Positions 36,801 through 62,000 of a DNA stretch of 64,000 nucleotides are shown here, one piece after another (the first letter of the stretch is position 1; every line of letters begins with the position of its first letter). The DNA is taken from contig NW_020312602.1 in assembly GCF_002999335.1 (NCBI RefSeq), positions 124,001 to 188,000 of the forward strand, in the 5' to 3' direction. The position numbers and the translations under genes were made by a program. The notes beneath the pieces are model-generated. The model saw nothing but the letters and a program-made list of their open reading frames with translations, ran no database searches and was not told the origin of the DNA. The DNA is from Cyclospora cayetanensis. Its lineage: Eukaryota; Apicomplexa; Conoidasida; Eucoccidiorida; Eimeriidae.

Positions 36801-39800
36801 GTGCTGGCTCCCTGCGGCAGCAATGAGGCACAGCCGGCGAGCTCTCCTCTAGAGGGCCCCTGCAGCTCCGAGAGTCTCCCCCTTGCGGGGCGTCTCCTCG
36901 GGGTTGCCGTCGTTGTGTCAAGTGTAGCCTCTGTATCCGTCGGGGAGGGGGCAGCCATCCGGATCATTCCAGGACCTAGAGACTTTCTCTGCGGGGGGGA
37001 GACTGTTCCCGCAATCGCTGTTTCGCAGCAGCGATCCCTCGAAGCGACGAAAGCGTCAGGCATTGGTCTGCTCGCAGGAGAGCGGCTAATGCTGCATGGA
37101 AACCTTGTAGTGGCGGCCACACCGAGTGACTGCCTCCCTGTGCCCGTGAAGCAAACCACGGCGCTTCTCTTTGGAGGTCGTGAGGTGTCGGTGCGTGGGG
37201 AGCAGCAACTCGACAGGCTTGTTTTGCTTAGCCAGGGAACGGTCACCTTGGGGGGGAGCTGCACGGTGGGAGCCCCCAATCGCTGCACTGCGCGGCGCAC
37301 ACCGCTTTTCCGCAAGCCCTCTAACGGCACGGCCGTGAATCACAGTACCGTCTGCACTGCTGTGGAGGAGTACACTGCTGCCCAAGTGGCTCCTCAGCTG
37401 CAGGCAGCTGCTGCGGCAGATGGCGTGACTTCTCCGCCCTCCTTGTTGCACGGATACCAGGGCTGGCGGCTGCAGGGTGCCGACTCTTATCGGGACGCTG
37501 AACGAAGCAGTTCTGGTGCAAACTCGGCGGAAGCAGACGTCGCAGATCCCTTGGGAGTCGGCGTCAGCGACAGCTGCAGTGGACGCCCGCTTGCCGATTC
37601 GCGCATGGCGTTTGGTTGCTTGGGCAACACGCTGCCTGGCTTTGCACCACACGAGGCGTCCTGGAGCGACAGGCTCCTAAGAGCCGTTCGCCAGATTTCT
37701 CCAGAAGGCGGGCACCAAGGGAAGGCGCGAGAGTCACGCCGCCACGCTAAAGAGGAAGGCCTTTCGCAGGAGAGGGCGAATTCTCCGCCTAGAGGGGAGC
37801 AGCCGCACGGAGACGCTGCTGCCTCAGGGATTGCTTCCCTGGAAGACGGAGCCCCTGTGGGGTTTCCGGGAAAAGTGATGGTTGTAGAGGCTTTGAGCCC
37901 TCCCGTTCGCGAAGTTGCCAAACAGAGAAAGAAGCGTGGCTTCTGGAGAGGACTGGCTGCATTGCTTGAGCCCGAGGCCGCCTTCTCACCTCCCAAAGCT
38001 CCCTCCGCAGAGGGCATTCACCGTTCGTCGCTTCGCTCTCCAGCGTCTGAGAGTGAAGCAGCGACAGAGGGCGCAGAGGCATCAGCCTCGGCCGGGCGTG
38101 ATTCCCCACTGAAGACGCCTCAACGGAGTCTTGAGGGAATGCAGTCTGATGAGGGGGCATCTGAATCCTCTGAAACATCGGCGTTTTCTTCCTTGCGATG
38201 GCCCTCACAAACGCCGTTCGCCTCCTTGGAGCAGGAGCCCTTCCCACTGACTTCGCGGGTGTCGCCTGCTGCCGCTGCTCTTGGAGGCGAAGATGCCCCT
38301 CGCCTGAACGATGGGGTCGCAGCGTCGGCAACTTTGGCAGATGTTGAACTTCTTCAGGCAGGTTCAGTTCCTTGGGGTCACCTGGACGCAACTATTTTTG
38401 CAAGGGACGGTGTCGTGCTGGAGGCGGGGGCATCCCTTGTCGGGGGAGCTCTTTTAGTATGTGGAGGTCATGGCAATACACAGCTTCAGGGAACGATCGA
38501 CGCAAGCCGCCGCGGCTGTCAACCGGTTCACGGTGAGCGTCCGACGCCAAATAGTGCCTTGCTTCTGAGTCAGCAAGAAAAACGCGGATTCCTGGGGCCT
38601 GCTGACATCTCTGTCTAGCACACCCATATGTGCACTCCCTTTTTCGAGGCGCTGCAGGCTGATGCCCTGGAACGCGAGTCTTTGTTAGAGTGCTCTCCCG
38701 ACGTTCTTGTTGCTCCAGGTTACAGCAAGAGGGAAGACGGATCTTTGCATGTCCTCTGCATGGTAGTCTGTGCAGCGGAAATGCGAGCTGCTGGCTCTTT
38801 GCCGACGTTGCGGTGTGCCCGTGTCTGTTGTCTCAGGGCCTGGTGCTGGAAGCCGAGGCGTTGCTCTAGATTCGCCTTCAACAAGCAGCGAAGCTGCCAA
38901 TTCCCAGAATATAGCCGTGGAGTCTGCGCTGTTGTGTGGGGGAGGAGGTGGGGCGCACGTGGGGTCTGGAGGAGACGGCGTCCACGCGGTAACTGGATTT
39001 CCTTGTAGGGGTAGTGGGGGCGTCGGCTATGACCGAGAGCTCGTGTCGAAGTTGCAAAGGATCCTCCCTTCTTCTAAAGCTGCCGCAGCACAGGAGGCCT
39101 CTGTTGGGGGGGAGCGTCTTAGGGCTTTTGCGTCGACAGCGAGCGCCTCAGGGGGTGGAGGGGACGTCGCAAGAGCTGGGAGTGGAGGAGGAGTTGTATG
39201 GGTTCAGGGGCAGGTCGTTACAGTAGAGGGCCAGATTTTGGCTGATGGTGGAGGGGGCGAGCTGATGCAAGATGCCATCATAGACGTTGAAGTGGACCCC
39301 GAGAAATGCACACCCCTTGCTCCCCCGGTTGGTGAGGCGCAAAGGGGGTCCTCAGAAAGCGCAGGCGACTCCGGCCTCTCAGCCTTAGCTGCGGCTGCTG
39401 CCGTTTCAACGGGTGCTGCCGCGTGGAACGGCGTGGGCACCAAGGTGGGGGAGGGGTCTTTCTCGAGCGGGGCGCTATCCCAATCAAACGTCCATGACGG
39501 AGTACTGTTGTCGTCTACGAGACCAGCGCAAAAAAGGTCACGCTCCGAGGAGGATGATAAGGCTACCCTCGGGAGCCCCTTCACAAGGGACAGCGTTTCG
39601 TGCCAGCTCTCCGGTATTTTGTCTGACCCTGCACAACTTGGGCAGGGTGGCGGGGCAGGAGGCTCCGTAGTCATTGAGACGGCAATTCTCCTGGGGGGGG
39701 GCACAGTGTCTGCGCAGGGCGGCTCAGGAGGCCGCTGCACCGGGGGTGGAGGCGGGGGAGGAGCCATCGACTTTCTATGGGACATAGCTTTCTTCACCTG

Positions 39801-42800
39801 GCCAGAACGCCTGCCTCCAGAACCGGATCTGCGGCTGCCAAAGAGCCACGGCTTCGACGTTAGCAGCCAGCTCGCTGCGGAAGCGGAAGCGAAAGCGGGT
39901 GCCTTGCAGGGGCACCAGGGTGGGAGCGCCTTCATCCCGTGGATTCGCCCTTTGAACTTTGCGGCTGGTTTCAGCGGATCGCTGCTCGTCAATGGGGGGC
40001 GTAGCGACCCCTCGACGGCTTGCGGGCCCCTGCAGCTGCCTCTAGGCTACTCTGGCTCTCCTGGAGAGGTGCGAAGCGCGTTGGGATGCCCCCCTGGTCA
40101 CGCCGGCTGGCGGTGCAGCCCTTGCCCAGTAGGATATTTCTCTCTTGGAGGAGGAGATGCTTGCCTCAGCTGCACAAACAAGCCGTCGGACGCGGCATTC
40201 TACACGCGAGAGGGCGTGCGCGACCCCCAGTGCCCGTTTGCGTGTGCGGAGGGCTATCCAGACGCCGCTGTCAACCCCCGCTGCCTGCCTCTTTTCCGCT
40301 TCGTATTGGACGCTCTGCTTTCCTTCGCCGTCCTGCTTCCCATGGGCGCTGTGTGTGTGATTCTCTTGGGCCTTGCAGCCCTCATAAGGGAGATGGCGCG
40401 GCGACGCAGCCAACAGGGCTGGGGTTATGGAGCTCTCTTCGGATCCCCCAGATCCTCGATCCCTGTTTATGTTGGGGCACTGGAAAGCGGCGTCACAGCC
40501 GCTGGGTTTGGAGGGGTGCAGCCGTCTCCTTCGAGTTCCTTGGGGTTTCTTGGTGGGTCTACCGAAGAGAGACGGATGCACTTGGCGGTACATCACCTTA
40601 CCCTGGAGGACCTGCCCTTCCACGTTCTGCGCATCTATCTACATGGCCGCAATTCCCCTGACTCTCCTTGGGGCTTGGATGGGCAGCCTCCCTCGTTTCT
40701 GGAGCCTCTCATAATCCCCCACCGATTTGCTGGGTTCGCTGCAGCAGCGAACTCCCTTTGCGGTTTCAGCCGTTCGTTTGTGTGTCTGTACGGCGCCCTG
40801 TCTTTCCTTTATCCCCCTCTGGCGGCGCTGCTTCTCCGGAGAGCAAGAAGCCGCAGAGCAGACAAACTGATTGCACTCTGCAGCACTCTCTCTGGAGGGC
40901 CTTCAGGAGCGAGTGACGGTGGATCGCCAGGTGCCTTGCCTTGGGGGCGGCGTGGCCCTCCGTGGCGATGGTTTCTGGATCTGCTGCGTTTCGCGAGAGG
41001 TAGCAGCCAACGTCGAGGCATTGGGGTGTCTGCTACGGCGTCGTTCTGGCGCAGCATCCGCGCGCGAGAGCTGTCCTTCGCCCTGAAGTTCGGCTGCGAC
41101 CCAGACTGCACACTGGGGTTCGTGGATGTGCTGGACCTCGATCGAAACATTTTGGATTACCGTTGCTCTCCGCAACTCCCTCTGGTTCTGCTGACTCAGG
41201 GGGACGGTCGGACTGTGCCCTTCACACTTGCCAGGGGAATTCGAGAACCAGGGGCACCCAGATCGGCTCGAGGGCTCCGCCAAGCAGATGAAAAAGGCAC
41301 CCCGGCGGATCCCTTACAAGGTGCTCTTGAGGAGCTGGCTTCGCCCTGGGTGTGGGCCTGCATTGTCGACTTTTTTAGCGAGAAAGTAAAAGAACTTACG
41401 ACGGAAGAACTGGGTGCCCTCAGAGCCCTTAGAAACCTTGAAACTGATGACGGCCGGAGGGGTGCCAAGGGCGGCGCTGATTACCAAGTGGGGGGTTCCC
41501 AGGAGGTCGGCAAGTGTATGGGCACTTCTCTGCCTTCGAATCCGCCAGAGACGCGCACAGCAGTCCCCAATGTCTCGAGCCCCTTTTCGAGGTGTGGGAG
41601 GTGTGGGAAGTTACAGTTGCCTTCGGCTTGTGCATCCTCGGGAGGCGGTGGGCCTCTCGGCATGCTTATGGGGGGCCCTCTCTACGCCCTTCGCACTGTT
41701 GCGCGACTCTGTGAAGGCATTCGGCTGATGAGCAACAGACTCCTCAAGCCCCATGGCATTAGCGCTGCCGTCGTCTTCCTGGAGAGTCGTGGGTTTGTTA
41801 GCAGAACAGACGGGGTCCGAAGAGCAACGGGCATTCCGCAGGAAATCGCCGCCTTTCATTCCAGAGTGCCGAAGCGGAGCTCTAGGAGGCCTCCACTGCC
41901 CAACGATGAGCGTCAAAGATGCAGAGGCTTGCCAGCGCTTTCTTCTGGAAAGAGAGGGGCCGTCTCTGGCGACGCCGTACCGCCTGCACCGTGGGGGCCG
42001 CTAGGTGGCCGTCGGTTGTTGCTTCGAGCAGCTTCATCCCCGTCTGCTCTCCTTGACAGTCTGAGGCGTAACGGCGGCACCCAAGAAGACAAGGATGCGG
42101 CCTTTGAGGCCACGTTTAGCGGAGGCTCTCTAGGAGCCGACTCTCTTACAGGGCGAAGGGACAGTCGCCACGATGTGGAGCGAGGGGGTTCTACTGCTTC
42201 CTTTGAAGCCTTGGGGTCGGGACCGCAGCAGGGACGGCCAAGCTACTGCGATCAGCGTTGGGGAGAGGGTGTTGTTACTGTGGAGAGAGAGGCGGCGCTT
42301 GCCCTCGTTATTACGGAGGAAGCTTCGGAGTCTGGCGCGGAGGTACAGCAGGGAGCTCCGAGCGCGCGGGAAAGGGGCGTCACATGGGATGCAAGTACCC
42401 AGGCAGTTGCAGTCCCTTGCTTTCCCCCCGCTTCTTCTACAGCAGTAACCTCCCCCCTGGACCCCCGCCGACTGTCACCAGGCAATCCTCCTCTAGCCCC
42501 CTACACCGCTGCAGCGGCCACGGCGCTCCAAAAGTCTATCCCCTACTGGGGAGCAGGGCTAGCGCTTCCAGTTCCGCAGACTTCTGGCGGCTCTGGTGGT
42601 CCGCCTACCTTGCGGCAGGCATTCGACAGATCGGTGCTTCCCTCGCCGAAGCAGCAGGTGCCAGGCAGCAAAAGAGGCCTCCGAAGAGTTGTGAGCCCGT
42701 TCAGTGAGCTCTCCTCCCCCCAGTCGCATGCAACCAGTCCAGTTTCTCCCCGAGAGCGTGCGGAGGATGGCACGAGGGTGACCCACCATAAGGAGGCTGG

Positions 42801-44307
42801 GGGGCCTGCAAAGTGTCTAGTCATGTGTCTTGCTGACGCTGCGAGGCGATCAGCTGGGGCAGATGCCCAACACCTCAGGGATGCGGTGGAGGCGCTTCAG
42901 AAGAGCGCTCGTGCCAAGCTTGGGACTGTGCCTCAGAGCAGCGCTACAGCGGTACACCCTGAGAGCTCGGCGGAAGTCTCGCGAATCACAACAATGAGCG
43001 CGGCAGAGCCCGAAGCAGAGGGTGCGCGGCCCGCAGTAGAGCCGCACGAGACTCTTGCGCCGCAAAGAAGTATTCTGCGCCCTCTACCACTACTACAGCT
43101 TGCATGGAGGCGGCTCCGCTTTCGCAGCTCTCCCACAGAGATGGCGAGGCAAGTCGAAAGCTCTCCTCTTTATACCCATGCGCATGCCACCCCTAGATAG
43201 ACGTTCGTCAGGGCGTGGCCTGACACCAGCCGCACTAGCACATTGAAATTCTATCTCCGCCTGCGAGAATGAGTGCGGCCGTTTGCATTTAATTCTTCGT
43301 GGGTGCTTTTCCCTGGTTCTAGGGGTGGCGGGGGAGCTGTATTTTCTTGCGCGCTTCATTCCACAGAGTCAGGCCTGGGTTGTTTCGATGTTTTTGCACC
43401 CTTTCGGGTCTTTCCTCAGGATCTACGTCTTGGCGGGGGCCCTGGTGCTCCATATTCTTCACATGGCGGCGACTGGCATCTATTTGTTTGGGCTCAAGAA
43501 CACCTCGTTTGCTGTGGCATGGCCACAGCCGTTCCCAAGGGCCGAGTCGGCGCATGGAAGCACGCCCTCCTGGGTACTGCCTGTGAACTCCTTTTGGTTT
43601 CAGGGGAATAACCAACAGACTGTGAATCCTAGCCTCCTGGTCGTCTCGCCTCCAATGGAGGGACCTGGTTTGGGGACTTCTCCTGCTGCGACTGCCGTGG
43701 CGAAGTGGGCAAGCCTTACACACCCCCTTGGCGCCTCCTCGTGGGGCCTCCTCGCTCTTGCGCTCAGCCTTCCCCCCTTGGCCGACCTCCTCTGTTGGAG
43801 CGTTGGCTTCTGGTTCTTCCTATCGGGAGACGTCAGGCAACAGCAGCTCTTCTCCATGACGGTCGCCGCAACAATGCCGAAGCACATCGTCGGTATGTGT
43901 GCAGGCAATGCCCTTCAAGGCATTTCGTTCGGACGCATGGGCTGTGAAGTTTCGTAGTCACGAGTAGCCACAAGCTTTCACCACTGGCACAGTTCACACG
44001 TGCGCAGTATGCTCCATTTTTGCTGAGAGTGGAGCCTACGTTTGCGCTTGTTCCTGTCGTTTACGCAGTGTATCTCTTCTTCCTTGTGAATGGGGCATCT
44101 CTGCGCGTCGCATTCTTCGGAATGGTGGAGTTGCTTGCCGTGGCGGCGCTAAAACTACTCCTGTGCACCTTGGGTAAGACGTCTTCTCTACGCAGCTCTT
44201 CGAATTTCCAGTCCATTCCTACCAAAATGTTTCCCTTTGCATGCGCTCGTTAATAAGCGGAGCTGGTGAATGAACCATCTTACCCACCCGTTTGGCGCAC
44301 CCTTTGA
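33880..44307 (+). CDS. Giant secreted-entry transmembrane protein resembling large plant glycine-rich membrane proteins (DUF8003-type)
   Basis: Exons 33880-35796, 35937-36516, 36721-38532, 38837-43152, about 43268-43892, 44069-44173 and 44258-44307; about 3,100 residues. The first four agree in phase; the end of exon 4 and the start of exon 5 are uncertain. The ATG at 33880 gives a signal peptide (WTLLRVLLLAVLVPGHLP). The ectodomain alternates glycine-rich patches (GGGGGAHVGSGGDGVHAVTG; GGSGGRCTGGGGGGGAIDF) with long disordered inserts. A Cys-rich GCC2/GCC3-like motif (CPPGHAGWRCSPCPVGYF) precedes a membrane segment (LDALLSFAVLLPMGAVCVIL). Next comes a cytosolic domain (SFALKFGCDPDCTLGFVDVL; LVLLTQGDGRTVPFTL) resembling the plant block FGGDGSYMAPFSL, then several C-terminal membrane segments. 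Order and motifs match Arabidopsis At5g11700/At5g47020-type proteins. Function unknown. Confidence 0.72.
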
Positions 44308-46704: not shown

Positions 46705-49700
46705 ATGTGCCGACTAACAGCCATCATTACCAGGGGGGACCCAATTCTCCTCGCAGATATTCTTACAAGGCCCCGAAGAAGCATCATTCAACAGTCGTTC
46801 AACTGTCAGGTGAGACAAGGAGCTGTCAGGCTGCGAAACGCCCATCTGGGCATCCACTGTACTGAGTAGGTACAACACTGTGCGTCAAGCATCAGGTCCT
46901 CTGTATTGACACCTAGTGATCCTGGAGTTACTCCGTATGCCGGTTCTGCGTGCGAGACAGGAGCGCCTGCCTCAAAGCGATATTCGGAGCGCGTATCAGA
47001 AGGCCTCACTCAACGGCGATGGCTTTGGAGTCGGCTGGTATGTTACCGACCGTGCTGAACGTGCCCGCTCAGCCGAAAACCTGTGCCTCCTACGAAGCTG
47101 CGGTGAGAGTCGCGACAGCGCTATAGGGGCAACAGTACCCGATCGTGACACCAGAGCAAAGGACAATGGGGCCTCATTGGATGACGGAGGAGCATGTGTA
47201 TTTACCTCCTTGAAGCCTGCATGGGCAGACAGGAACCTCTACAACCTTGCCGAAAAGGTATATATATATTTATGCTACTGGCTGCTTTCGGCTTATGCCT
47301 GTGTATGATGCAAGAGCCAGTGACCCTTGCGTTCTGGTGGCAGGACCCCTGCAGAGAATGGTCTTAGAGGCGTTTCTTTGGCATTCTCTCTCCACACACG
47401 AGCACACGTTCGCATGTCGAAATCGCTTTGTGGAGCGAATACGCCGTGTTTTAGTGCAACGGGGACTCCGCTTGCCGTTGCCACAAAGCCAGCTAGACCC
47501 CGTTAGGTGTCTCCGGCAACCTTGCCGGCATTATGCATCTCTCTCTGGAATGCAGCGCTTCTTTAGGTGGTCCTATGTGCTTGGCTATCGACACAGATTT
47601 CAAGCCGCCTGTTTTTCGCTCATGTTCGAGCGGCAAGCAGCACCCTCGGCGTGTCACAATGCACAACATGCACTGGTGGACTGCCTCCCTGGGCAGTAGC
47701 GAACGGCAGTGTTAGCACCGAGCTCTGCTGCCATCCGTTCCGCTGTGGACGCTTCCTTTTCATGCACAATGGCAGCGTCGGTGGCTTCAACCAAATTCGT
47801 CGGTAGGCCTATCCTTAGGCTCTGCTTTCTGCGGCGTAGCGAGCCCATTGCGACAGCAACCCGGAGATAACGCTCCCAGTTGTACATGTGGAAAGAGAGA
47901 TATTCGGGGAGAGTTGTTGTGTGCAGCCACCCCATTGTGATTGCTGCCCTAAGGGCACAGCCGGTAAGGGGTTCCGAGTCGGCTGTGCGAGCGTTCGGTG
48001 GACGTACTGCCCCCAGACGTGGCCTGCTGTGCATTTTCGCTGCAGCGACCTTCTGAGTCTTCTGCCCGATCCCATGTTTTCCTTTGCAATAACCAACAGC
48101 TGTATCGACAGCGCGTGTCTGTTCGCGGTCTTTCTGGCACTGCTGCCCAACATGCCCACAGAGCCCTCAAGCCATTCCGCCATGAAGGAGGCCGTGGAAC
48201 GCATGATTTCCGCGATCTGCTGGTTCCTTGACAAGGAAAAGATAGAGGAAACGACGCTGATCAACATCGTTGTGTCGGATGGGGAAAGCATTGTAGCCAC
48301 CAGATTCGTAACGAACGCTCAAGAAGTGGCCTACGGTAAGCGCGAGTGCCGCGAGGAAGTGGCTGCTCTCCGTCTGCACTCTACCTGCTGCGATAAGAGC
48401 TGGCATCAAAAAGCGGGAGGGGGGGGAGGGGTGCGGCTGCGTCGACAGCACAACGCGAGGCTCCCCAGCAGAGTCGGGGGTTCAAGAGCTGCCTTTGCCG
48501 AAGGTGCACTGTACACGTGGGGAAAGTCCCCCAGAAGAAACGCATGCACACACCTAAATTGTGGAGGATTTCTGCAATTGCAGAATCGGGGAAGTCGTCT
48601 ACTGTGCCGAGTTTCACGGGAGAAACCAGCCCTGCGATGCCAGCAAGCCTCTACTTCGCCACGGGGACGGCCTGGCAGCAGCAGGAGGAGACTTTGGGGG
48701 AGTTCCGCATGACTCATAGAGATAAGAGGTATACCCTGGCAACAACAGGCTCCATCAGCCTTCACCAAAAAAGACGCTTCTCGCCTGATGCGCGCCTATC
48801 TCATCTTTCTTCTCGCCCTCTTGCCTTCCTTCTGGATCCCCAGGAACTCTGTTCTCTGGGTGCAGTAGATTCTGCACGGAGCGACGTGCAACCACCATCC
48901 CCACGTGCAGCCAATCGAGAGCTGTGCACAGCAAAGACTGGTGGTAAAACGCACGCTTTCTCTGGCTGTGCGTGTCCTTTGTGCAGGACGGATATTTGCA
49001 TCGTCACCAGCGAGCCGCTGACTTCGAATCCGGAGGACTGGATGCCTGTGCCCCGCAACACCATGATTCTGATAACGCCGTCCATCGACTTACTACTCTA
49101 TCCGATTGCAAGCGTCGGCTATTTGCCCCCCCTGTTGCGGCGACGTCGGAGGTCGATCTCTGCGGTGTTCCCTGCGGATAGCTGCGGGTCCTTCGACAAA
49201 CAGCTCAGCCTGCGGTCGAGCCTAGCAGCTTCCCTCGCGAGTCGACTGGAGGGGGAGTTCAGCTCCTTGCAGGAGATGCTATTGGGAACTCCTAGTGCGG
49301 TCCATGCGATTTCGGAGGCGCTGCCAGTGAAAATGCTGCTTTCCTTGAAATCGGTTTTCCGCCAGATTGCCGCGGAGGGGCAGTCTTACGAAGGGGGGGC
49401 TGGCGAAGAGGGAGGAGTGAAGGCTTGGAACGCACTAGAAATGCGGCTAAACGCCTTCGAGCAACAGTTGCGTGCAGCGCAAGCACAGGGGCGGGGGGGG
49501 TCCGAAACTGAAGGCAGTCCTCATCTTCGCAGTGTACCTGCCTCGCCCCCAGGGATGCCCTCTCTTCCAGCTACAAGCTTGCAGCAAGCAGCAGCCTTCT
49601 CGTCGGACAGCGTGGGAAGCAGTCAGCAGTGCTACGAGCTGATTGCGGGCACCTGTGCAATCTTGTGTCTGGAATCCATAATGGTGCATGTCGCCAAACG

Positions 49701-52700
49701 GGGTGGCGGGCAGCGGGAAGCGTCTCTTTGGGGGGAGCAGTCCCCGCCATCGCTGCCTGTGGCAGCGAAGTCCTTTGTTTTCGCGGGTATGCAGAGCGGC
49801 GACGTTGTCGTGTACGATGCAATCAGCTCGTCTGTGGCGCCCATATCCTTCCACGCACACGTGGGAGGCGTGCTAGCCATGGCCGTCCACGTCTACACAT
49901 GGACAGCAGGATCTGTGCGCTCAGCACGCACCGTTCCGTGTGCAAGCTGCGGCGCAGCCCTGCCCGAAGTGTTTCTGGTGACGGGAGGCAGTGACACGTC
50001 TTTAGCCGTGTGGGATCTCTCGCCCCTCCTTTTTGGAGGTCACGAGCCTCGCCTTCTGAGCGGCACACAGGTACTTCTTGACGGTCCAAGAGTGTCTATT
50101 GCACCCGAAGACTTGCTGGCCGTCCGTCTCACGTTTCTTCCTCACCAAGGCGATGTGCTCTCCCTGCTGGTCAAGCGTGTCTCCGAGGGTGCGGCGCGGG
50201 AGACAAGCTGCAGCATGCACGACCCCTTTACCCGAGTCTGCACGATTAGCGCCTGCGACGCCTGCGTTCCTGGGGTTCGCGCAGCGATGCGGCTCGAGGG
50301 AGGAGCCAGCGGAGCGAACGAGGACCTCTCCCCGTCCCCTATATCCACCTTTTGGATGCCCAGTCTCCACAAGGTGCAGCCGAATCCCTTCCTAGAGGAC
50401 TCCGGGAAAAAGGTTCTCCTCTTTATTGGCTTTCAATCCACCAAGATCGGCGCCATGCGCCTCAGCGACTTGCTAAGGTACTTCCGTCACACCCAGGTGA
50501 TGGTCTCCGTGCTCGCGAATGCAGTATCCTTCCAGCCCACGCAGCAGCAGGCACTGCCCCTCCGCGTATCCCGAGACTTCGAGCTAAAGACTCTCGCTTC
50601 GGGGCAGCTCAGAGTCATGTTTTCCGGCGAGCAGGAACGGGAGTCTCTGCGCTCCCTCTTCACCCGAGAACCGACGCATCTGGCCGGACTGTCGCGCAGC
50701 GTTCCTCCTTCCCCCCCGAGCGACAGTACCTGTGCAGTCTCCCCTTTGGGGGCAGCCGGCTTGGCAGCTGATGCCTCCTTCCGGTCGTTGCTCTCCACTT
50801 TCGCGCGCAATCTTCGGAATGTCACGCTGCATGCGTCGCACTCGGCAACGACTTTCTGGCCCGCCAAAAGCGGCCACTCCTCAGGGCGCCTCAGGTGTCT
50901 CTACCCCCCAACGGGCACCATCTACTATTTCGAGGCTCCCCACGAGCTCGAAGTCCCTCTGCCAGAAGGCGCTGCAGCCTCGGCATCTCCAGGCACGTAC
51001 AGAGTAGTGAGCAGCACCTCCAGTCTGAAGATCGTGGCGCAACCCTCTCAAGAAAACGGAGAAAGACTCAAGATCGAGATGCGGTTTCTGCCGCTCGAGC
51101 AGTCCGGCGTGAAGCGTCAGACGTCGCACCAGTCCTTAGTGGGGCCTTGGCTAGACGAGAGTGGTCACAACGGCTTTGTGGAGTGCCTCACAAGCTGCGG
51201 CAAGGTTATTTGCAGCGGCGGAGGTGACGGCCGACTCCTCCTATGGAGCGAAAGCGGTCGTCTCGTGGGCGAGCTGTCTGGACACCACGGAGGGGTGCTC
51301 TGCGTCGCATACACAGAGGCATCCGTGGACGCTCTCTGCAAGGATCTGAGTGGCGGGGAACCGAGGGAACGATTGCAGGATGGCCCCCCTTCGCAGGCGG
51401 ATGCTCCCCAGAGCACTGATGAGGAGTCTCAGTGTCTCCAAGGACTGCTGTTCAGCGGCAGCCGAGACACCAGCATTCGTGTGTGGGCTCTCGAGCAGCT
51501 GGTGTGCATGCAAACCCTGAATGCGCACACCTCGGAGGTCCTGGCTCTTGCTGCCGACGCCTCCCGCAACATACTCATTAGCGGCTCTGCGAACGGCGAG
51601 CTGTTCGTGTGGCAGCTGGACCTGCTGGTAGTGGCCTTCCGCCTTAGTCTGAATGTATCGCCGTCTTTCGACGCGGACAGAGGATATTTCTCCACACCTA
51701 GCGAAGCTCGGAACGCGCTCATTCACGGGGGTTCCTCCGGCAGCCAGCAGGCAGGCGTATCTTTCACAGATCTGTTGCTCGTGTCCGACGCGTCCATGCT
51801 GGACGTTGAAGACGACCACGAGACTCCCGCAATATCGCCTCGAGCTAGCAAGCCGCAAAGAAGCACAATACGCGGAGGTCTTCAGCTGTGGGCAGGGCGG
51901 GGAGACGGCAAACTGGGAGTCTGGACCCTAAACGAGACAGATGTGCTCGAGGACGCGTCTGTGGGAGAGCTCGAGGAGCCGTTTTTCCACCCTAAGGGCA
52001 CGGCAGGCTTCGCCAAGGGTGGCCTCTCCGAAGGATTGCTGTCCGAATGTGAAGGGGCACCTGCGACAGACGCAAGTGAGCGTTTGCTGCGTGCAGACAG
52101 GCGCAAGGGACAGCCCAGTGAGGGTGCAGGGACGCTTGCTCAGATTGCATCCTCAAAGGACGCGGTCGCACAGATCCAACGTAGCCTTTCAAGTCGCATC
52201 GGCAACATGGTCATCACCTCCGGAGCGTCCATGCCCTCTTTGCCCTTACTCAAGAGTGCAACTGGACTGGAGCCGCGAAGGAGCGACTTTCTGTCTCTGC
52301 TTGGACACCTCGTGGCATGCAAGTCGGTATCCGCCTCGAAGAATCCCCTGCACTTCAGCGGCTGTATAGCGGCTGCAAAGTTTGTCGCCCAGCTGTTCGA
52401 GCAGGCACTAGGAGCCACCGTGGAAATCGTATGGCCCCGTCAATCAGGTGTAACCTCCGAATTTCACGGGGATGAGGGTGCGAATCGGCCGCATCCTGTC
52501 GTGTTCGGACGCCTCGGCACGAATCCACAACACCCCACCATTGTGTTTTACTCGCATTATGACGTTGTATCACCCGGAGAAAGCCCCGCCTTCGGTGCCT
52601 CGACCGCTGCAGAGTGTCCTGACACCCCGTCATCGTCTCCCTTAGCCAGCTCCGGATCTCCCTCCCCGAACCGCCCCGCTACAGACTTCTGGCGAGCTGC

Positions 52701-55700
52701 CACTGCGCCATATTTAGGCCCTCGGAGCAGCTGTGAAGCCTCAGGCACCACCGAGCAACTGAGACACCCTGCGCACCGCTCCAACAAACCACTTTCAGAG
52801 TGGAGTGGAACGGGGTGGCTCACAAATCCGTGGAAGATTCACTGCAAAGACGGCTACATCTACGGGCGCGGAGTTACGGACAACAAAGGCCCCATCATTT
52901 GTTCACTCCTCGCGGTAAAGCACTTTATTTCTGAATGGAGACGCAAACACAAAGCTCGACATGCTGCTCATCAACAGCCTCAACCACGAGACACAGGGGA
53001 CGCCGCTTCTGGCCAAGACCCCCTAACCGCCAGAAGTGCCCCTGCAGTGCCATTCAACTTCGTTTGGATCTGCGAAGGCGACGAAGAGAACGGTAGCATA
53101 GGTACGTGCTTTTCAAGTATTATTCCCCGTTCGCGGCATTAGAACGCTTGAGCCGCCCCTTCACGGAATAGCGCTCCGCTCTTCGGGAAGTGTACAACAG
53201 GAAATTCAGATAGGGCCTCTCTAGTCCTCACAATGTGCACCCTGTTGCCGCCTAGTGGATTTTCCCTTCTTGTACGATCTATGCCTGCACGTATGCAGAC
53301 ATGTATGGATGTAAACATGTATGGATGTACACATGTATGGATGTAAACATGTATGGATGTAAACATGTATGGATGTATGGAACTGCTCTGTGGAAGGTGT
53401 GACGAGACGTGCTCGCAGGCACACGTTGTGTGTTTCCGGCATGTCTGCTATGGCCTTTATACATGCCGAGGGGGCACCAACTTTGGGGCTGGCATGCATG
53501 TCGGCTAAAATCGTGTGGCTGGCATGGCGTTTGCTCAGGTCTGGCGGATGCGGTGGCGCAAAAGGCCAGTTGGCTACATGGAGCTCGTTTTCTCATCTGC
53601 AACAACAGTTACTGGGCAGACGACACCACGCCCTGTCTTGTGTGCGTCCTGTATATACAGCTTCTTTTGCCTTTTTTGCCGTCCTTTATGGCTTGCAGGT
53701 GTAAGGCACGTTTCTTTTGTAGGACCCCAGGGCATCCACACTTCTACACTGCCTGTTTTGGGGATTTCTTGTTGTTTCGCGTGCTGCTGTTCTCATGTGA
53801 ACAGCTACGGCATGCGCGGGGTGCTGGATATTCGCGTGGAAGCCACAAGCGGCTCCGACTTCAGCGGCTATCACTCGGGGGTGCATGGTGGCGTTGTGGA
53901 AGAACCCATGCAGGCAAGTAAATGTTTCGGGGTTCGATTGCACTGCAGCTCGTGTCAGTTGCGCGAGGGTATATGTAGGGAGGCGGATAGTGTCTCCCCC
54001 TCCACATATATATATGTACATATGTATGTATATTTGTGTGTATGTAGGGTGCTATTACACCTATGGAGCTGTCTCGCAGAACTCTCGGAGACAGACGCAC
54101 GCTCACACAGCCTCCCTGTGGTGTGCGTGTGACTGTGAGCGCAGAGTCTGGTGCATCTGCTGGGCTGCATAGCGGACCCTGCCACTGGACGTGTGACGGT
54201 GCCTCGATTCTACGACTCCGTGTTGCCTCCAGATCCTACTGAGGTGAGCAGCCAAGCGGCGATTCGGAGAAGGTTTGCGGTGCGGCTTTTTCAGCGTGAT
54301 TGTGGCTCTTACGGATGCCTGCGCTTTCTCCGTAGAATGCATTGCACTGCGATTTCTCAGCTCGAGCGCATAAAGATAGCGGCCGCGTCAGTGACTCCGG
54401 AGTGCCGCCGGCAGGTTGAATTCAGGAAGGCTAAGGATCTCCAAGAGGTTTTTAGAACAAGGTACACCCCATCTCAACCTTAGTTGGCGAGGGGGCAGTC
54501 AGACTCAGGCTGCAGGCGCTGTAGTGCTCCTGCCCTTCCAGCTTCCTCGTTTCTCTTTCGCTGTGCAGAGAGAGACGCCAGAGGCTTCTGGCTGGCGCTT
54601 TCTCGTGTGATCTGTTAGGGGGGGGAACCGCGTCCTTCTGATGTACATACAAAACGGGATTGCAGCACGGTGCTGTATGGCGCTGCTGAGTGCCTCCTTT
54701 GCGTTCAGCTGGTTAGAACCTTCCCTCTCGCTTCTGGGTATCAACACCTCCTTGAAGGGGAAATGCGCGCACGTCGGGGGGGCTATGCGCGTCATCCCTT
54801 CCACGGCTTGTGCCGAAATCAGTCTGCGTCTCGTGCCACAGCAAGTAGGGCCAGTGGCATCCTCTTCCTGCTCTCCCTCTCTTGGCTCTAGTCTGCAAAA
54901 GAGATAATTTTGAGACTCTCAAATTGCGGCAGCACCATTTCCCATAGGTGAGCCACTCGGAAGTCGCCCATTTTCTTTTTTTTCAGAGTCCGAAGGAAGT
55001 ATTTGCTCTCGTCCGCAATTACTTGGAGGAATCGTTTGCGAAGATTTCTTGCACGAGCAAGCTGACTGTGCAGTGCCTCCGACAAGGCCGCTCCTGGCGC
55101 GCGGACTTGGAGGCTCCACGAACGCGTGCGCTTTACGGAGCAGCGCATGCAGCCATTAAAGAGGTAATACTTATGCTGTGTCTGTCTGTTGCCTGAAAAG
55201 CATGGACTTGGCTCAAGAAAGGGGGGGAGGGCAGGGCAGAGTTTTTTTTAAAGGAAGATGCAGCACGTCTGCAATTTATTTCCGCAGTCAGCCCCTTCAT
55301 ACATCTGTTCTCGGGGTTTTACTGAGAAGGAGCTTTCTCGAAACTCCTAGATTGTAACGCTGGTGCATAGAAACTAATTTGTTTTTCTGCAGGTCTGGGG
55401 TGTAGACCCTCTGTACGTGCGGGAAGGCGGCTCTATGCCTGCCATTCCCTTCCTCGCTGACTCCCTGCGCAAACTTACAGGACCTCATGGATCCCATGGG
55501 GGTCTTGAAGAAGTAGCTATTTGTCAGCTGCCGTTTGGTCAGGCTAGCGATAATGCGCACTTGCCGAACGAGCGCCTGGGAATCCGACAGGTTGAGAAGG
55601 TGAGTGAGCATGTGTGGAATTCGCAGTTGGCCGGCAGACGAGTAACTACTCGTTACTTGGGGTAATAAGGGGAGCAGTTGCTTTTAGAGAAAGGCTTAAT

Positions 55701-55864
55701 GACGCCCTAGTATTGCTTCAGTAGGCTCAGTCCGATGTGACGCATGCTTGTGCATTGCGCGCGCTGCTCAGGGGGTCGATGTGCTGGCTTGCACTCTGGA
55801 ATATCTTGCGGCTCGACTGGCGGGGGAAGGTTCATTAGCATCTCCGTCTCCTAGGATGTATTAA
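46705..55864 (+). CDS. DUG3-DUG2: Dug3-Dug2 fusion: class II glutamine amidotransferase + WD40 + M20 metallopeptidase
   Basis: Thirteen exons, every junction phase-checked: 46705-46809, 46961-47257, 47597-47802, 48046-48335, 48584-53101, 53539-53641, 53805-53913, 54145-54243, 54361-54461, 54709-54844, 54987-55163, 55393-55599 and 55772-55864; 2,146 residues. Residues 1-475 match yeast Dug3: MCRLTAI with Cys-2 as Ntn nucleophile, NGDGFGVGWY, FAHVRA, FMHNGSVGGF, SEPLTSNPEDW. Residues about 695-1420 carry WD40 repeats (LLLWSESG, IRVWALEQL, LFVWQLDLL). Residues 1530-2146 are an M20 peptidase: H1624/D1626 (HYDVV), D1732 (GVTDNKGP), E1800-E1801 (EGDEENGS), H2103 (SDNAHLPNER). WD40-M20 is the Dug2 layout. 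In yeast, separate Dug2 and Dug3 cleave the gamma-glutamyl bond of glutathione. Exons 4 and 5 both lie inside the Dug3 part, and exon 5 runs unbroken from it through WD40 into M20. A 63-nt intron inside exon 3 is possible. Intron 7 has a GC donor. Probably cytosolic. Confidence 0.92.
53299..53378. repeat. 16-bp tandem repeat, five copies, in an intron of the Dug fusion gene
   Basis: Five copies of ACATGTATGGATGTAA with one or two substitutions, at 53299, 53315, 53331, 53347 and 53363. The array lies in the intron between exons 5 and 6. Open frames through it are spurious. Confidence 0.92.
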
Positions 55865-56043: not shown

Positions 56044-59019
56044 TTATGAAGGCTCTTCTTGTTTCATGTTTGGGAGGGAGCCAGTATTTGCATGGGCTTC
56101 GGCCCCCGCAGTGTTTGCCCCTAGAACTGCGGTGTGCAGACGCCTCGGCTTTTCCCCCGAAGCTGCGCTTAGATGGTAACTCTGAAGCATCCTCCGAAAG
56201 TTTACAAGGGCAACGCGCTTCACCATTGAAAGGCTCTTGTCGCGCTTCTTCGCATTAGGAGCCTCTTTCTTGATTTTCGCGCTGCCATGTGGCAACCGAC
56301 CGCAGCTCAGTGTACATGGTGCAACTGTGAGAATGCTTCCCGGCGTCCGCATATTCTCCGGGATACTGCATGAACCACCGTGCTTCGCTGGCACGAATTC
56401 GCGATACGATGTAATGGGCTGGCTTGTGTCTGGCTCGCAGCTGTTGCATTCGTTGGGATCTTTTGGGGTGTAGTGAAAAGCGCATTGCTTTGGCATAGCG
56501 AGATACGTCATTAGCCGGCATGTGAAAACTTCTGGATCACGCGGCATGCTGCTGGTGGTAAGCCACAGGTAAAAGTTTCCACCGTCTTGCATAGCCGCCT
56601 GCTCGCCAAGGATAACTGGCAAGGCCATCCAGTGGGGTCTGGTGTTGTTGTGCTTCTTGTTATCCGGGGAACTGGCATCCGTGTGTGTGCCAGAGGGAGC
56701 GATAAAGGATCGCGCCCATACTTGTGCAGATTCAGAGCCAGGGTAGAGTTGCGAAGCACCGACTTTGCAGCTTTTAATGCCACCGAAAGAGTTTGCCATA
56801 AATGAGCAGTTGCCGATTACCTTTTGGCCTAAATCCTCCTCCGCGAAGTAGAGCGCTACGTTTGTCGCCTGTGAGGTGACAGGCGAAGGCAGAATATGCG
56901 ATAGTCGTGAAATCCTACCTTTGCGGAGCACCTCAGCGTGCTGCTGGGAGAGGGTGCTGGACAAGATACTCATGCCCTTAGGGACCGTAATATCTATTTT
57001 GTCGCATTCAAGTGTAGGCAAGAAGAATATCCAAGCTCTTGTTGCTTTCCCAAACTCGGGGTTTTCCAGATAAACAGAACAATCCTCGCATGCCTGAGTA
57101 TTGCACTTTCGTGCAGTTACCAAAGGCTCTTTGTCGGCTTTGCACGGTATTTGGAATGTATCCGGGTACAGCTTTTCGCCGAGCCAACGCGGGATGCCGT
57201 TCGCAACTTGGACAATAGATGTAATATTGCCAAACCCGCCGCACGGAAACGGACATACGCCCCAGGGGAAAGAAGCTGGCATTGTCCTGCTATTGATTTC
57301 TTCCACTCTGCATCCCATCTGCGCCGGGCACGGTGCTTTGAACCTGTCGTCACACGGCGTCAAGCTAACAACGGCTTTCAGCCTTTCAGACCAGCCTGCT
57401 CTGGTGATGTCATCCCAAGGATACAACTTGCTACACGAGTGACCCCATCCAGCGCCTTGGATCAACACCCGGCGAATGCTGACCTTGAATGCTTCGCCGT
57501 CCTTAGCACCACAGTTTCTTGTGCAGCTGCTAAGGAGTTCCCACCCCAAAAGCTGGCAGCTAAGGCTACAGGCTTCTGTTTGACACCTCCGCTTTAATAT
57601 TGCTCCTCCGCAGTGTTCCTCGCTAGGCCCCGCGAATAGCATACGAGTCCAGATTTCGTACCCTTCATTGCATGTAGTGCTACAAGGAGTTTCTTGCTTC
57701 CACTCGCTCCAGACGCATCTGTATCTTGCGATGAGCCTTGTGTCTTCAAAATGTTTGGTAACTGCATGACCTCCAGTAAAGCGAAAGGTTGCGAACCACG
57801 ACTGCGGAATCTCCGTCGTTGCCTTAGTGGACGGCAGGCTAGTGCTTATAGCAAAGTAATGCTTTCCCAGTGGGAGGTCTCGCGAAGTATCAGCACTTGA
57901 TACTACCAAGAACGTTGCTTCTCCCCCATGCTTCCGCTTATCGTGTGGCAGCCGTAAGCTGCACCTTAAGGGGGGCATGGTTGGGTCGGCAGAACGACAG
58001 AGTGTCGTATCACTGGCCTTCTCCTCAATCGTATACCCAGCTGGGATCGCTAGGACAATAAAAGCAATATCCTTAGAATCGTGCGTTTCTGTAGGGAACG
58101 TGTATTGGATGTCTAGCTGCGATCCAAGCGAGCCTGGATCTATGGCTACTCGAAAATCGTTATCCATTGTGTCGAGAAGCTGATTATTATCGGGCATGTG
58201 CACAGCTGAGCCTGCCGGTTCCAGATATTTATCCATCGTACCGAAGGTGAAATGCGCGGTTGCCCCTTCAGCTGAATTCCTAGCGGATGCCTCGTGCTCT
58301 GCCGTGACTCCCCTTACATTTGCCTCTGTAGTTCCTCCCTGCATCGAAGACTCTGAATCTCTGACTTTAAGATCCTCGATTTTCCATTTTGTTCGTTCTT
58401 TGTTTGCAAAGGTACCTGGACTCGTTGACAGCTTCGCAGATGATTTCAGCTCAAGCATGGATCCACCGAAGAGGACTTCCTGGGTTGGATTGCCAGCTTG
58501 GTCAGAATAGTTGCGCCAGGGCATTCGAGTTGCACTTGCGTGTTCGGTTGCTAGAGCATTGCCAAGCGCGTTTCCTGGTACTCCTGATCTGTAGGGTTGT
58601 AGCTGTATGTTGAGCCATGTGGTATCGGAGCTCTCGTGGCGTGTAATACGAGATAGCTTTTCCAGTATCTCGCTGTATTCACGTGCGGCTACATTTTCGC
58701 CTTCCCAAGGGGCACTCTTTTCTTCAGAACTGCCAACCACATCGAGCTCTCTAAGTGTATTCCTCCACGGGACGAAACTTTCAAAAGCTTTGGATGTGTC
58801 GCTTTCCTGAGGTTGAAAGCCTTGCTCTGTGCTTGGTAATACAAAGTTGTATTCATGGTCCTGAGCTGCGTTGCCTAGAATTCCTAGATACAAGCCTAGC
58901 AACGGTGCAGTAGACAATACGAACGCAAACGAAAAATGCCAGCTGAATTTGAGCTTACTTCCACAGTCCACCCGGCGACTTTCAATAAAGAAGGAGAAGG
59001 GGTACAGCAATGCCCTCAT
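56044..59019 (-). CDS. Thrombospondin type-1 domain protein, membrane-anchored or secreted
   Basis: Intronless, 991 codons, ATG at 59019. A hydrophobic segment (AFVLSTAPLLGLYLGILG) at about residues 31-50 would be an uncleaved anchor or an internal signal. The first 400 residues are low in cysteine. From about residue 435 come TSP1-type modules: WSEWKQETPCSTTC with CGG, then WELLSSCTRNCG, then PWGVCPFPCGGFGN. A CTLSCG motif follows near the C-terminus, within a larger cysteine-rich region. There is no C-terminal membrane segment; the tail is short and polar. In apicomplexans, TSP1 proteins are commonly microneme or surface adhesins, and that is the likely role here by analogy. It is convergent with the Dug fusion gene, 180 bp from its stop. 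Confidence 0.85.
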   Translation of the reverse strand: MRALLYPFSFFIESRRVDCGSKLKFSWHFSFAFVLSTAPLLGLYLGILGNAAQDHEYNFVLPSTEQGFQPQESDTSKAFESFVPWRNTLRELDVVGSSEEKSAPWEGENVAAREYSEILEKLSRITRHESSDTTWLNIQLQPYRSGVPGNALGNALATEHASATRMPWRNYSDQAGNPTQEVLFGGSMLELKSSAKLSTSPGTFANKERTKWKIEDLKVRDSESSMQGGTTEANVRGVTAEHEASARNSAEGATAHFTFGTMDKYLEPAGSAVHMPDNNQLLDTMDNDFRVAIDPGSLGSQLDIQYTFPTETHDSKDIAFIVLAIPAGYTIEEKASDTTLCRSADPTMPPLRCSLRLPHDKRKHGGEATFLVVSSADTSRDLPLGKHYFAISTSLPSTKATTEIPQSWFATFRFTGGHAVTKHFEDTRLIARYRCVWSEWKQETPCSTTCNEGYEIWTRMLFAGPSEEHCGGAILKRRCQTEACSLSCQLLGWELLSSCTRNCGAKDGEAFKVSIRRVLIQGAGWGHSCSKLYPWDDITRAGWSERLKAVVSLTPCDDRFKAPCPAQMGCRVEEINSRTMPASFPWGVCPFPCGGFGNITSIVQVANGIPRWLGEKLYPDTFQIPCKADKEPLVTARKCNTQACEDCSVYLENPEFGKATRAWIFFLPTLECDKIDITVPKGMSILSSTLSQQHAEVLRKGRISRLSHILPSPVTSQATNVALYFAEEDLGQKVIGNCSFMANSFGGIKSCKVGASQLYPGSESAQVWARSFIAPSGTHTDASSPDNKKHNNTRPHWMALPVILGEQAAMQDGGNFYLWLTTSSMPRDPEVFTCRLMTYLAMPKQCAFHYTPKDPNECNSCEPDTSQPITSYREFVPAKHGGSCSIPENMRTPGSILTVAPCTLSCGRLPHGSAKIKKEAPNAKKRDKSLSMVKRVALVNFRRMLQSYHLSAASGEKPRRLHTAVLGANTAGAEAHANTGSLPNMKQEEPS

Positions 59020-62000
59020 CTGCCCTTCTCAGGCCTTCAAGATTTCGGAGGAAGACCTCACAGCAGAAAGAGACTCTAGCAAGTGGTTCAGGGGGCTGCA
59101 GTGCAGCCGACGGATATCGACCGCATTGAAACCTGGGGTTGGACGACATATGATTCGACCAGAAATCACAAATGAAAACTTCGAGCAACCAAAAAAGAGG
59201 CAGACGCGCTTAGTTCGCTTGTTGCAAGGAAGGAGTCAAAGCACAGCACCAGTACTGGCGGCCTGAGATCCCTCAATAAACAAATTACCCATGGAGTCAC
59301 AGACGTACCACAAAAAAAATCAAGGGGAAGCTGTCTTCCGCGTCTGGTGAACAGATGTTCCAGGGTTAAAGAGGATCTGGGGATATCGGCCGCCCAAGCC
59401 CTCACTCATGGGATCCGTGCTGGGAAGCTGACTTGTACTTCCATTCAGCCCATTGCTCTAAAGCCAGGGTATAGCCTTGAATCATTCTAATATATGCACC
59501 AAGATATATTGGCTAGTTTCAATGAAAATTCATCCTTCCCGAATTTTTGTTGTATAGGAGCATTGTGCCATGCTGCGAATGGTGAGCTAATCAATCCTAG
59601 AGCAGCAGAGGGTGCCTTCGGGTGCCTGAAGGCGAGTACCTACAAGCCTCTGTCCATACATAATAATATTCATGCGAGGCGGATTGTGTTGCTTTTATCC
59701 TACGCATAGGCGTGAAAGCGATGTAATAATAAGCTTGCATCTAATCAATGGTTGGGGAACGTAGTGTTCCGCATGTGGCCTGAACTAAACACTATTGACA
59801 AAACATAAAAAAGTAGGCGGGTTTCCGAAAGTAGAGTGGCTCTTTTGAGGAGAAAAAGCAAGATCTTTGATAGAAAGATGATTTTTCGGGGACCCAGTAT
59901 CGCGCAGTGCAGGCATGGAATAGACAGTACGTGACTTTCCCCCACAAAGGGACTGCTTATAGGAACAAAGTTCACGAGGATAAGAGCATACAAGTCGAGA
60001 AAGTATGGCACTGACTGATTTATTCCGTCGATATCCAGGGTACTGATATTGAATGCTGTCCTCGAGCATCCTCAGGCAGTGCGTTAGCATAACCAGATGT
60101 GCTGTTCGTCGCGAACAAAATAGACTAGCAAGTTCTCTTCAGGAAACTGCAGCTGCATGGTGGCTCTGCACTTAGCTGGGCGCAGGCCTTGACACTGGCC
60201 TTTTCTATCACGCCCGACGTATACCTGTTCAATAGCTCCTTGAGGACTTTTGCACTAGGTAAATTCGAAAACAGCTTGCTGAACTACCTCAGGCTCATCA
60301 ACCCATCACGTCCACGCAATATAACCAGTGACAAACAACAAACAGTACGACGCACTCTCAAGGACGATGCGTGGCTGACCACTTTTTGCCTTGGCTGGAC
60401 TAGAGTGGGTCTGTGCTGCTTCAACCCTATCCGTGAAAGAGCAGCAGTTAACATCATGGGCTGTGTTGAAACTGCATGGCTTTTTTCTGTACTCATGCAA
60501 ACTGTGCTAGCGATCCAAACAGTCGGCAAGTTGTACAAACCAACGGCTTGCAAGCTAACCGTCGCAGCAAGCCAGAATATGCTACCTAAGCTTTGTAACA
60601 GCATAACCTTTATATCGAGGAGCACCCTTGGATTTTTGCCAGTCTTGAATACAAAAAATTCGCACGCTAGTAGCTGTCTTCATTAAACTCACAACAGGCT
60701 GAGTGACCAACATGCTTCGCAATAGAGCCTTAAAGCATCTTCTTTGAGAGCCAGCCTTTGCCTCACATGGAGGATGGGCGGGGAAAGTCGTACTTGAACA
60801 ATATCAACTACACTACTCATAGAATCCGAAGAGTCATTGAGGTATTGACTATTGGTGTGTCTATTCGTGCTTTCCTTTTACTGTAGAGTGTTGTTAGCTC
60901 GATGCAAGAATGTGCAATTTTGTAGCAGTGTGCCCTAGATATCATTTGCAACCAAGTGCAAATCCGGAGTGCATGAAGATTGCAGCTATGCGGAACCTAG
61001 CTGCCCCTCTGCACTAATGTCGAGGTCTCTGAGTGGCGCAGACAGGGGAAAGAGAGCATTTTTCGGTGGAAACCGATAACTTTCTATCAACTGTGTTTTG
61101 AGCCTGTAGTTCAGTGTTCTCCTATGGTGATTCTAAAGGGAGCGTTTAATTTGGTGGCATTGCATCTTTGATGCAACTGCTGCCCGTTCTCCCAGTGGCT
61201 ATAAACTGAATAAGAAATCAGGCTTCTTGTGAGCAAACAACACTCGTTTGAGTTCCACCAGACAACTGGGTGCCTTTGTTGCATGGTTTGGGTGGCAGCA
61301 GTAAAAACAAACGAACTCTATGGCGATGGATGTTGACGGCCGTGCAGAGCCTGTTGAGACTCAATAAGCTGGCCCCCAAGCCGATGTAAACTTATTCTTT
61401 TTACAGCTAATGCAAAGGTATGAGGATTCAGCAGAAACGTGCCTACGGATGCATTGATGAGGCCTTGCCTACCAGAAATGCATGACAGCATTGAGGATAG
61501 GCAATTTCTCGAATACTCATCTGCTCGTTGGAGATGTTCAGCGCTTTGTAGCATTTAAATGAAGAAACACGAGTTTTGATGAGATCATGCTTATGAAATG
61601 GAGAATAAAATTGATGTAGGCTGTTTTCATGTGGAGTAAGTCGTCCGCCCGGAGGAATGACCACAGTAGAGACCTTTTTTTGTAGCTGTGACAAATTTGG
61701 TACATGCCGATATCAGTATAGCATCAAGTTTTGGGAGAATTGAGAAAGCTGGAGCAAGGAATCTATCGATTTATCAGTGAATAGAGCGCTATAGAAGCTA
61801 GGTTTCCAAAAACCATAACGTAGACAAATGGCTGCTATATCAGTGGTTTATTCCAGGTGTAAACGGATAGTCACGTCAAGGGGTCGCCGGATGGGCAGCA
61901 CTCCAGTGATCAAGAGGCCGACTACTAATTGTTCTACAACCGATGGAATTTGGGGAATTTTAATAGTGAATGAGCACAAACCTAGGTCTTTGGCTGAGAA

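Follow-up and report, generated by a model that had tools for sequence, protein, structure and literature searches.

Is the glutathione-degrading machinery built from the Dug2 and Dug3 proteins a possession of fungi only? The question is raised by a gene of the apicomplexan Cyclospora cayetanensis, located at 46705-55864 on the plus strand of the 64,000-nucleotide stretch of contig NW_020312602.1 analysed here (the window). Publications dating from 2019 to 2022 contain passages stating that Dug2p/3p members 'are restricted to fungi' (PMC7340319) and calling the Dug pathway fungus-specific or fungal-specific (PMC9012958, PMC6508711), and a passage on Euglena gives one contig for 'GSH degradosome proteins' (GSH being glutathione), with a fusion unmentioned in that passage (PMC6351624). 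No paper describing a single-chain enzyme came up in the searches made of the open-licence literature, including those with Toxoplasma, Apicomplexa and Cyclospora. The Cyclospora gene encodes in one chain Dug3 (a class-II glutamine amidotransferase, GATase, approximately residues 1-393), a WD40 propeller and an M20 domain (approximately residues 1434-2046), and, judging from its sequence, the product is quite probably a single-chain Dug3-Dug2 enzyme that is predicted to open glutathione at its gamma-glutamyl bond, giving glutamate and Cys-Gly. Because coccidia, several algae and an amoeba encode both halves in one gene, the enzyme family is not confined to fungi.

The spliced model runs from the ATG at 46705 to the TAA ending at 55864 and reads in phase through 14 exons into 2060 residues, with the sole stop at its end, bearing out a preliminary description of this DNA which had proposed, within the same limits, a single in-phase gene in the order Dug3-WD40-M20. 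Its best match, 98% identical over the whole length, is C. cayetanensis LOC34624195 (P0001), named 'uncharacterized protein'. The Dug3 part begins in exon 1 (46705-46809), whose start MCRLTAI.. places the predicted nucleophile Cys2 at 46708-46710, and continues through exon 2 (46961-47257, with an insert besides the motifs NGDGFGVGWY and FTSLKPAW), exon 3 (47597-47802, with AHVRAA carrying Arg145, CHPF, and MHNG carrying Asn192 and Gly193), exon 4 (48046-48335, with the IDS motif, its predicted catalytic Asp224, and Ala for the Glu of the fungal and bacterial TDSE) and exon 5 (48584-48728, with SLYFATGT). Thirteen exons had been counted in the preliminary description, where the stretch 48584-53101 (4.5 kb) was taken as a single exon 5. 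Fourteen are likely, because the P0001 model splices out 48729-48986, a putative phase-2 intron of 258 nucleotides, stop-free, in frame and with GT/AG ends, which is spanned by the open frame 48397-53142 (1581 codons) and whose removal joins ..THRDKR-TDICIVTSEPL... The long exon is thus likely two, but the 4115-nucleotide exon 6 (48987-53101) still carries the last part of Dug3, all of WD40 and the first half of M20.

Exon 6 opens inside Dug3 (RTDICIVTSEPLT) and closes inside M20, which is why the two halves belong to one gene. Within it, the end of Dug3 (TDICIVTSEPLT..DWMPVP) is followed by a predicted helical linker, by the whole WD40 propeller (49609-51957) and by the first M20 motifs, namely HYD (52555-52563), the Asp of TDNKG (52879-52881) and EE (53083-53088); the motifs named in the preliminary description (the MCR start, HYD, TDNKG and DEE) can all be read. 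M20 continues through exon 7 (53539-53641, with NSYW, where Asn1742 at 53604-53606 replaces a presumed metal-ligand Asp), exon 8 (53805-53913, with YGMRGV and HSGVHGG, carrying His1777), exon 9 (54145-54243), exon 10 (54361-54461), exon 11 (54709-54844, with WLEPSLSL), exon 12 (54987-55163) and exon 13 (55393-55599, with REGGSMP, carrying Glu1972, and SDNAHLPNE, carrying His2017), and exon 14 (55772-55864) supplies the C-terminus and the TAA stop. Exon 10 is left out of the database model P0001; equivalent residues are present in five of the eight relatives checked (P0004, P0005, P0006, Toxoplasma P0016 and Blabericola P0021), a pattern search giving nothing in P0002, P0003 and P0007, and the public annotation of LOC34624195 is probably wrong at 54361-54461, where this exon is skipped. 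The intron after 53913 begins with GC (CAG followed by GCAAGT), an apparent GC-AG intron, all other introns of the model being GT-AG, and the intron between exons 6 and 7 holds a tandem array (53299-53377) of 4.9 copies of the 16-bp unit ACATGTATGGATGTAA, with 96% matches. The fusion of Dug3, WD40 and M20 in one gene is real: besides the bridging exon 6, the same order is found in relatives of many lineages, as the preliminary description would have it in denying an artefact, and sister species (Eimeria and Toxoplasma, which it proposed to survey, as well as Hammondia, Neospora and Besnoitia) have the same single chain.

The Dug3 profile matches the Cyclospora chain, in which the GATase residues are intact (Cys2 directly after the start Met, Arg145, Asn192, Gly193 and Asp224). 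Across 41 aligned Dug3 domains, every row with a letter at the site agrees with Cyclospora at Arg145, Asn192, Gly193 and Asp224, and the same holds for Cys2 (36 of 36 lettered rows, with a gap in the other five). Among the matches listed, 22 of the 29 near-complete fused proteins start with MCR; the other seven, which start later or are N-terminally extended, may be gene-model errors. When the genome was searched with a Dug3 protein query, all 7 matches fell within this gene, exon by exon, and no second Dug3 locus was found with it. The two-subunit form of fungi is therefore not what is seen here, where one in-phase gene carries both parts. Compared with the yeast (Dug2p-Dug3p)2 complex, the Cyclospora protein has the same three domains, the conserved GATase residues, the WD40-M20 pairing and the Asp-to-Asn change in the M20 site, but is one polypeptide, as opposed to the products of two fungal genes, with long inserts and with the TDSE Glu replaced.

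Several observations weigh against a glutathione hydrolase of the yeast type. The Glu two residues after Asp224 is present in all fungal (9/9) and bacterial (5/5) rows, and is Ala, Val or Ile in 20 of the 22 fused rows (the remaining two keep Glu); since it is changed in most fused rows, the substrate preference could differ from that of yeast. Of the domain searches proposed in the preliminary description, those with the Pfam WD40 and M20 models gave matches, but GATase_6 scored only 17.4 bits on the divergent GATase domain (cut-off 27), and a six-frame search of the 43.2-Mb genome with GATase_4 gave no match. Additionally, this domain is related to EgtC, whose family model TIGR03442 matches P0001 below its cut-off (109.5 bits, 1.6e-31; cut-off 218.65). 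EgtC, an enzyme of ergothioneine synthesis, acts on a gamma-glutamyl sulfoxide and is not known to act on glutathione, so that a related class-II GATase domain is used there as a gamma-glutamyl hydrolase on another substrate. It is conceivable, then, that the Cyclospora protein is a gamma-glutamyl amidohydrolase acting mainly on something other than glutathione (an EgtC-like enzyme, a gamma-Glu-dipeptide enzyme or a gamma-glutamyl transferase), a reading which could call on the match to the EgtC model, on the match of the P0020 domain to the solved EgtC (E ~0.005) and on the altered TDSE motif. Passages on the yeast complex also describe it transferring the gamma-glutamyl group to peptides and amino acids and cutting gamma-Glu-Met (PMC6508711, PMC7617739). 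We nevertheless regard this reading as unlikely, given that the EgtC score is about half of the cut-off and concerns a model that covers the GATase part only, that among solved proteins the P0020 GATase domain matches the class-II protein 3mdn best, ahead of EgtC, and that in the yeast glutathione enzyme the partner is the WD40-M20 part. A glutathione or gamma-glutamyl-peptide hydrolase, as had been proposed, is likely by homology.

The M20 half differs from the nearest solved peptidases at a presumed metal-binding position. Across 42 aligned Dug2-type M20 domains (25 of fused proteins, 11 of fungi and 6 others without Dug3), Asn stands at the position of Asn1742 every time, in the fungal ones too. 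The solved relatives nearest to this domain are the dipeptidases CNDP2 (2zof, 4ruh), DUG1 (4g1p) and CN1 (3dlj), all four sequences of which have, in contrast, Asp at the aligned site (SDNYW or SDNLW), which we take to be a metal ligand. The rest of the site is strongly kept: His1538, Asp1540, Asp1646, Glu1715, His1777, Glu1972, Asp2014, His2017 and Glu2021 are invariant in all 42 rows and Glu1714, presumably the general base, is kept in 39. Measured against the catalytic set of the CNDP2/DUG1 type (where the metal ligands, His2017 among them, are presumed by residue numbering), the Cyclospora protein agrees at H1538, D1646, E1715, H2017 and E1714 and departs from it at the Asp of SDNYW. The replacement should impair a two-metal peptidase site and, being shared by all Dug2-type rows, makes 'M20 peptidase', the function given in the preliminary description, probably wrong, the domain probably not being a peptidase. 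This agrees with Kaur and colleagues (2012), who reportedly found no peptidase activity in Dug2p.

An active peptidase as the main function was considered and rejected. On this reading, M20 would still be a working dipeptidase and the chain would cut glutathione twice, first at the gamma-glutamyl bond and then at Cys-Gly, as a one-protein degradosome. The proposal can point to the His, Asp, Glu and His columns taken as ligands and the histidine of HSG, kept in 42 of 42 rows, to the general base kept in nearly all, and to the dipeptidase nature of the nearest solved relatives. Additionally, a yeast DUG1 query had no match in the genome, a weak negative, since the same query also missed the M20 exons of the present gene; a second M20 gene (C189:5500-10800), considered as a Dug1 candidate, was set aside for its amidohydrolase-type motifs HACGHDAH and QPAEEGG and is presumably M20D-like. 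With one ligand Asp replaced by Asn throughout, fungi included, the general base lost in 3 of the 42 rows, and Dug2p reportedly inactive as a peptidase, two successive cuts by one chain seem to us quite unlikely, and in a passage on yeast a separate protein, Dug1, is the Cys-Gly peptidase (PMC7617739).

Taking the single-chain Dug3-Dug2 enzyme as a glutathione hydrolase, a mechanism may be proposed. Once Met1 has been removed, the attack on the gamma-glutamyl carbonyl of glutathione would come from Cys2, with the glutamyl group held by Arg145, Asn192-Gly193 and Asp224, the roles that we assume for these residues in the GATase site. The WD40 domain, which is matched in Pfam and forms one propeller in the structure model, with M20 following it, would hold the GATase in cis; in yeast, the propeller reportedly binds Dug3p, and the WD40 and M20 parts of Dug2p are reported by Kaur and colleagues (2012) to bind Dug3p and dimerise. 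M20, one metal-ligand Asp short, would not cleave peptides but serve for dimerisation and perhaps as a substrate-binding platform, and the resulting homodimer would correspond to (Dug2-Dug3)2. The released Cys-Gly would likely pass to the M17 leucine aminopeptidase encoded in the genome.

The surrounding metabolism was searched in six frames, exon by exon, over the 43.2-Mb genome. GCL, glutathione synthetase, ChaC and an M17 aminopeptidase are present, the GCL and glutathione synthetase models matching here, yet in none of 14 control genomes; GCL, ChaC and M17 were recovered as several pieces, which shows the search to be capable of picking up multi-exon genes here. The ChaC gene lies at C330:154500-158500, with three exon matches. 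GGT was not detected in this search with two models, although an intron-rich GGT could be missed, and neither were the two halves of 5-oxoprolinase (PF02538, PF01968); the models for the missing families match in 6 to 8 of the 14 control genomes. By the predicted route, glutathione would be opened either into glutamate and Cys-Gly by the present enzyme or into 5-oxoproline and Cys-Gly by ChaC, after which M17 would cleave Cys-Gly, as Plasmodium M17 enzymes do with Mn according to a passage in PMC7948507. Since 5-oxoprolinase was not detected, 5-oxoproline made by ChaC would have no detected route to glutamate. With a ChaC gene also in the genome, the sole route for cysteine supply implied by the preliminary description is not supported.

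How widely the single chain is spread was examined with the proteins of three similarity listings, two of which gave the best 120 of 152 and the best 120 of 988 matches; the counts that follow are among the matches listed in the former of these two and in the third. At least 29 near-complete proteins, including the one studied here, have most of Dug3 and of M20, with Dug3 first; the reverse order was met in none. Named holders are Cyclospora, Eimeria species, Hammondia, Toxoplasma, Besnoitia, Neospora, Chromera, Vitrella and the gregarine Blabericola, and beyond these Chlorella, Prototheca, Auxenochlorella, Volvox, the amoebozoan Planoprotostelium and EG_transcript_716 (probably Euglena gracilis, from its entry name), so that the fusion is not the coccidian speciality it had been supposed to be. 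The green algal, Planoprotostelium and probable Euglena chains have the same order, but are shorter (1228-1815 residues). Seven further proteins (P0008, P0009, P0010, P0012, P0045, P0055 and P0065) carry, ahead of M20, no more of Dug3 than its C-terminal part, and 33 have M20 without Dug3, of which 24 are named fungi (all 24 named fungal Dug2 proteins) and 9 are others, among them the Eimeria-like P0011, P0013 and P0014 as well as P0042 (lacking a start Met) and P0053. We read the seven partial proteins and the three Eimeria-like ones as cut gene models or fragments and not as separate Dug2 genes. Dug3 without WD40-M20 occurs outside fungi and bacteria in Spongospora (P0247, 320 residues) and Durusdinium (P0246, 398 residues), and in Guillardia and Nannochloropsis entries marked partial. 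Among the rows listed, none bears the name of Plasmodium, Cryptosporidium, Theileria or Babesia. In a contig scan with few patterns, which could have missed a bacterial fusion, six bacterial loci match the Planoprotostelium protein in its Dug3 part only. The domain content is already visible in databases, because several relatives go under the UniRef name 'Glutamine amidotransferase type-2 domain-containing protein'; other fused relatives are called 'Cys-Gly metallodipeptidase DUG1', and several coccidian entries 'WD domain-containing protein' or 'hypothetical protein'.

The origin of the fusion was approached with trees of both halves. The Dug3 tree (41 rows, rooted on 5 bacterial ones) includes the window model and, out of the 29 near-complete fused proteins, 21; it leaves out three of the five bacterial loci tried (L006-L008, for which the selection rule gave no row), the bacterial locus L011 and the Durusdinium protein. 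In this tree, fungi form one clade (support 100/99), and a second clade (87/95) unites the fused rows, algal, amoebozoan and coccidian alike, with four entries of Dug3 alone (Guillardia, a Guillardia-like one, Nannochloropsis and one alveolate-like transcript); the Spongospora protein stands outside this second clade, and alveolate rows fall together (100/99). A clade of alveolate and fungal Dug3 was rejected by the approximately unbiased (AU) test (p 0.0066), and one of fungi and Planoprotostelium was not (p 0.274). The WD40+M20 tree (36 rows; without P0005, P0046, P0059, P0072, P0083, P0084 and P0088 of the M20 set, and with P0045 added) separates fungi from all others (100/100) and keeps all fused rows together (70/83); in a tree of M20 only, the fused fragment P0055 (947 residues, on a long branch) falls weakly with fungi (66/70). 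The two halves largely tell the same story, as would be expected if they had travelled together, and we infer that the fusion is old in eukaryotes, with no recent coccidian event.

These trees bear directly on the proposal that coccidia acquired the gene recently from fungi and fused it afterwards. In its favour, fungi are where the two-protein system is known, and the literature calls it fungus-specific, but with a clade of alveolate and fungal Dug3 rejected, and with both halves grouping with the fused proteins of algae and amoeba and not with fungi, we discarded this origin as very improbable. That Dug3 and Dug2 are two adjacent genes wrongly joined is scarcely credible, for although Dug3 is split over several short exons and exon 6 alone bridges the two parts, that exon is a single stop-free frame from Dug3 into M20, the order recurs across the near-complete proteins of many lineages, and two relatives come from entries (Blabericola NODE_478_length_8196_cov_107 and EG_transcript_716) whose names suggest transcript assemblies; there, a single RNA would carry both halves.

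Fused forms occur in Amoebozoa, Alveolata and green algae and probably in Euglena, and the simplest reading would be that the fusion is ancient and was later undone in fungi by fission. The fission is something we can only infer, because support at the key branch is moderate and the Spongospora Dug3-only protein lies outside the fused clade (this protein and the P0055 fragment both bear on whether the enzyme began fused or split); a split confined to fungi is also opposed by the Dug3-only proteins of Guillardia, Nannochloropsis and Durusdinium. Going further, and tentatively, the single chain may be the original eukaryotic form and the fungal Dug2/Dug3 pair its derivative by fission, with M20 a former Cys-Gly dipeptidase turned by the Asp-to-Asn change into a clamp that reads Cys-Gly and presents glutathione to the GATase, and with coccidia, for want of a detected GGT or 5-oxoprolinase, dependent on the chain as their only return of glutamate from glutathione; we hold this combined picture to be possible and not probable.

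Elsewhere in the window, a 994-codon open reading frame on the minus strand (56044-59028) adjoins the gene; it has the look of a cysteine-rich protein, either secreted or at the surface, and a weak match, below cut-off, to TSP1_spondin (thrombospondin-type). A 727-codon frame on the plus strand (12079-14262) has a PLD-like domain and a phospholipase D active-site motif, both above cut-off, and a 783-codon frame on the minus strand (21248-23599) has a cwf21 domain above cut-off, a borderline DUF1877 match and, inside it, a 36-bp tandem array of 9.7 copies (21549-21898). No Pfam match at 0.001 was obtained for the 1477-codon frame at 38767-43200 (plus strand), nor for those at 33817-35898 and 36627-38618.

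The presence of one-polypeptide Dug proteins in coccidia, chromerids, green algae and an amoeba suggests that this enzyme belongs to a general eukaryotic toolkit. For structural and kinetic work, the single chain is a simpler object than the yeast complex of two proteins, and the Asn found uniformly in the M20 site gives a direct test of why an amidotransferase needs a 'peptidase' domain. For the parasites themselves, it leads to a prediction of how, with GGT undetected, coccidia may regain cysteine and glutamate from glutathione.

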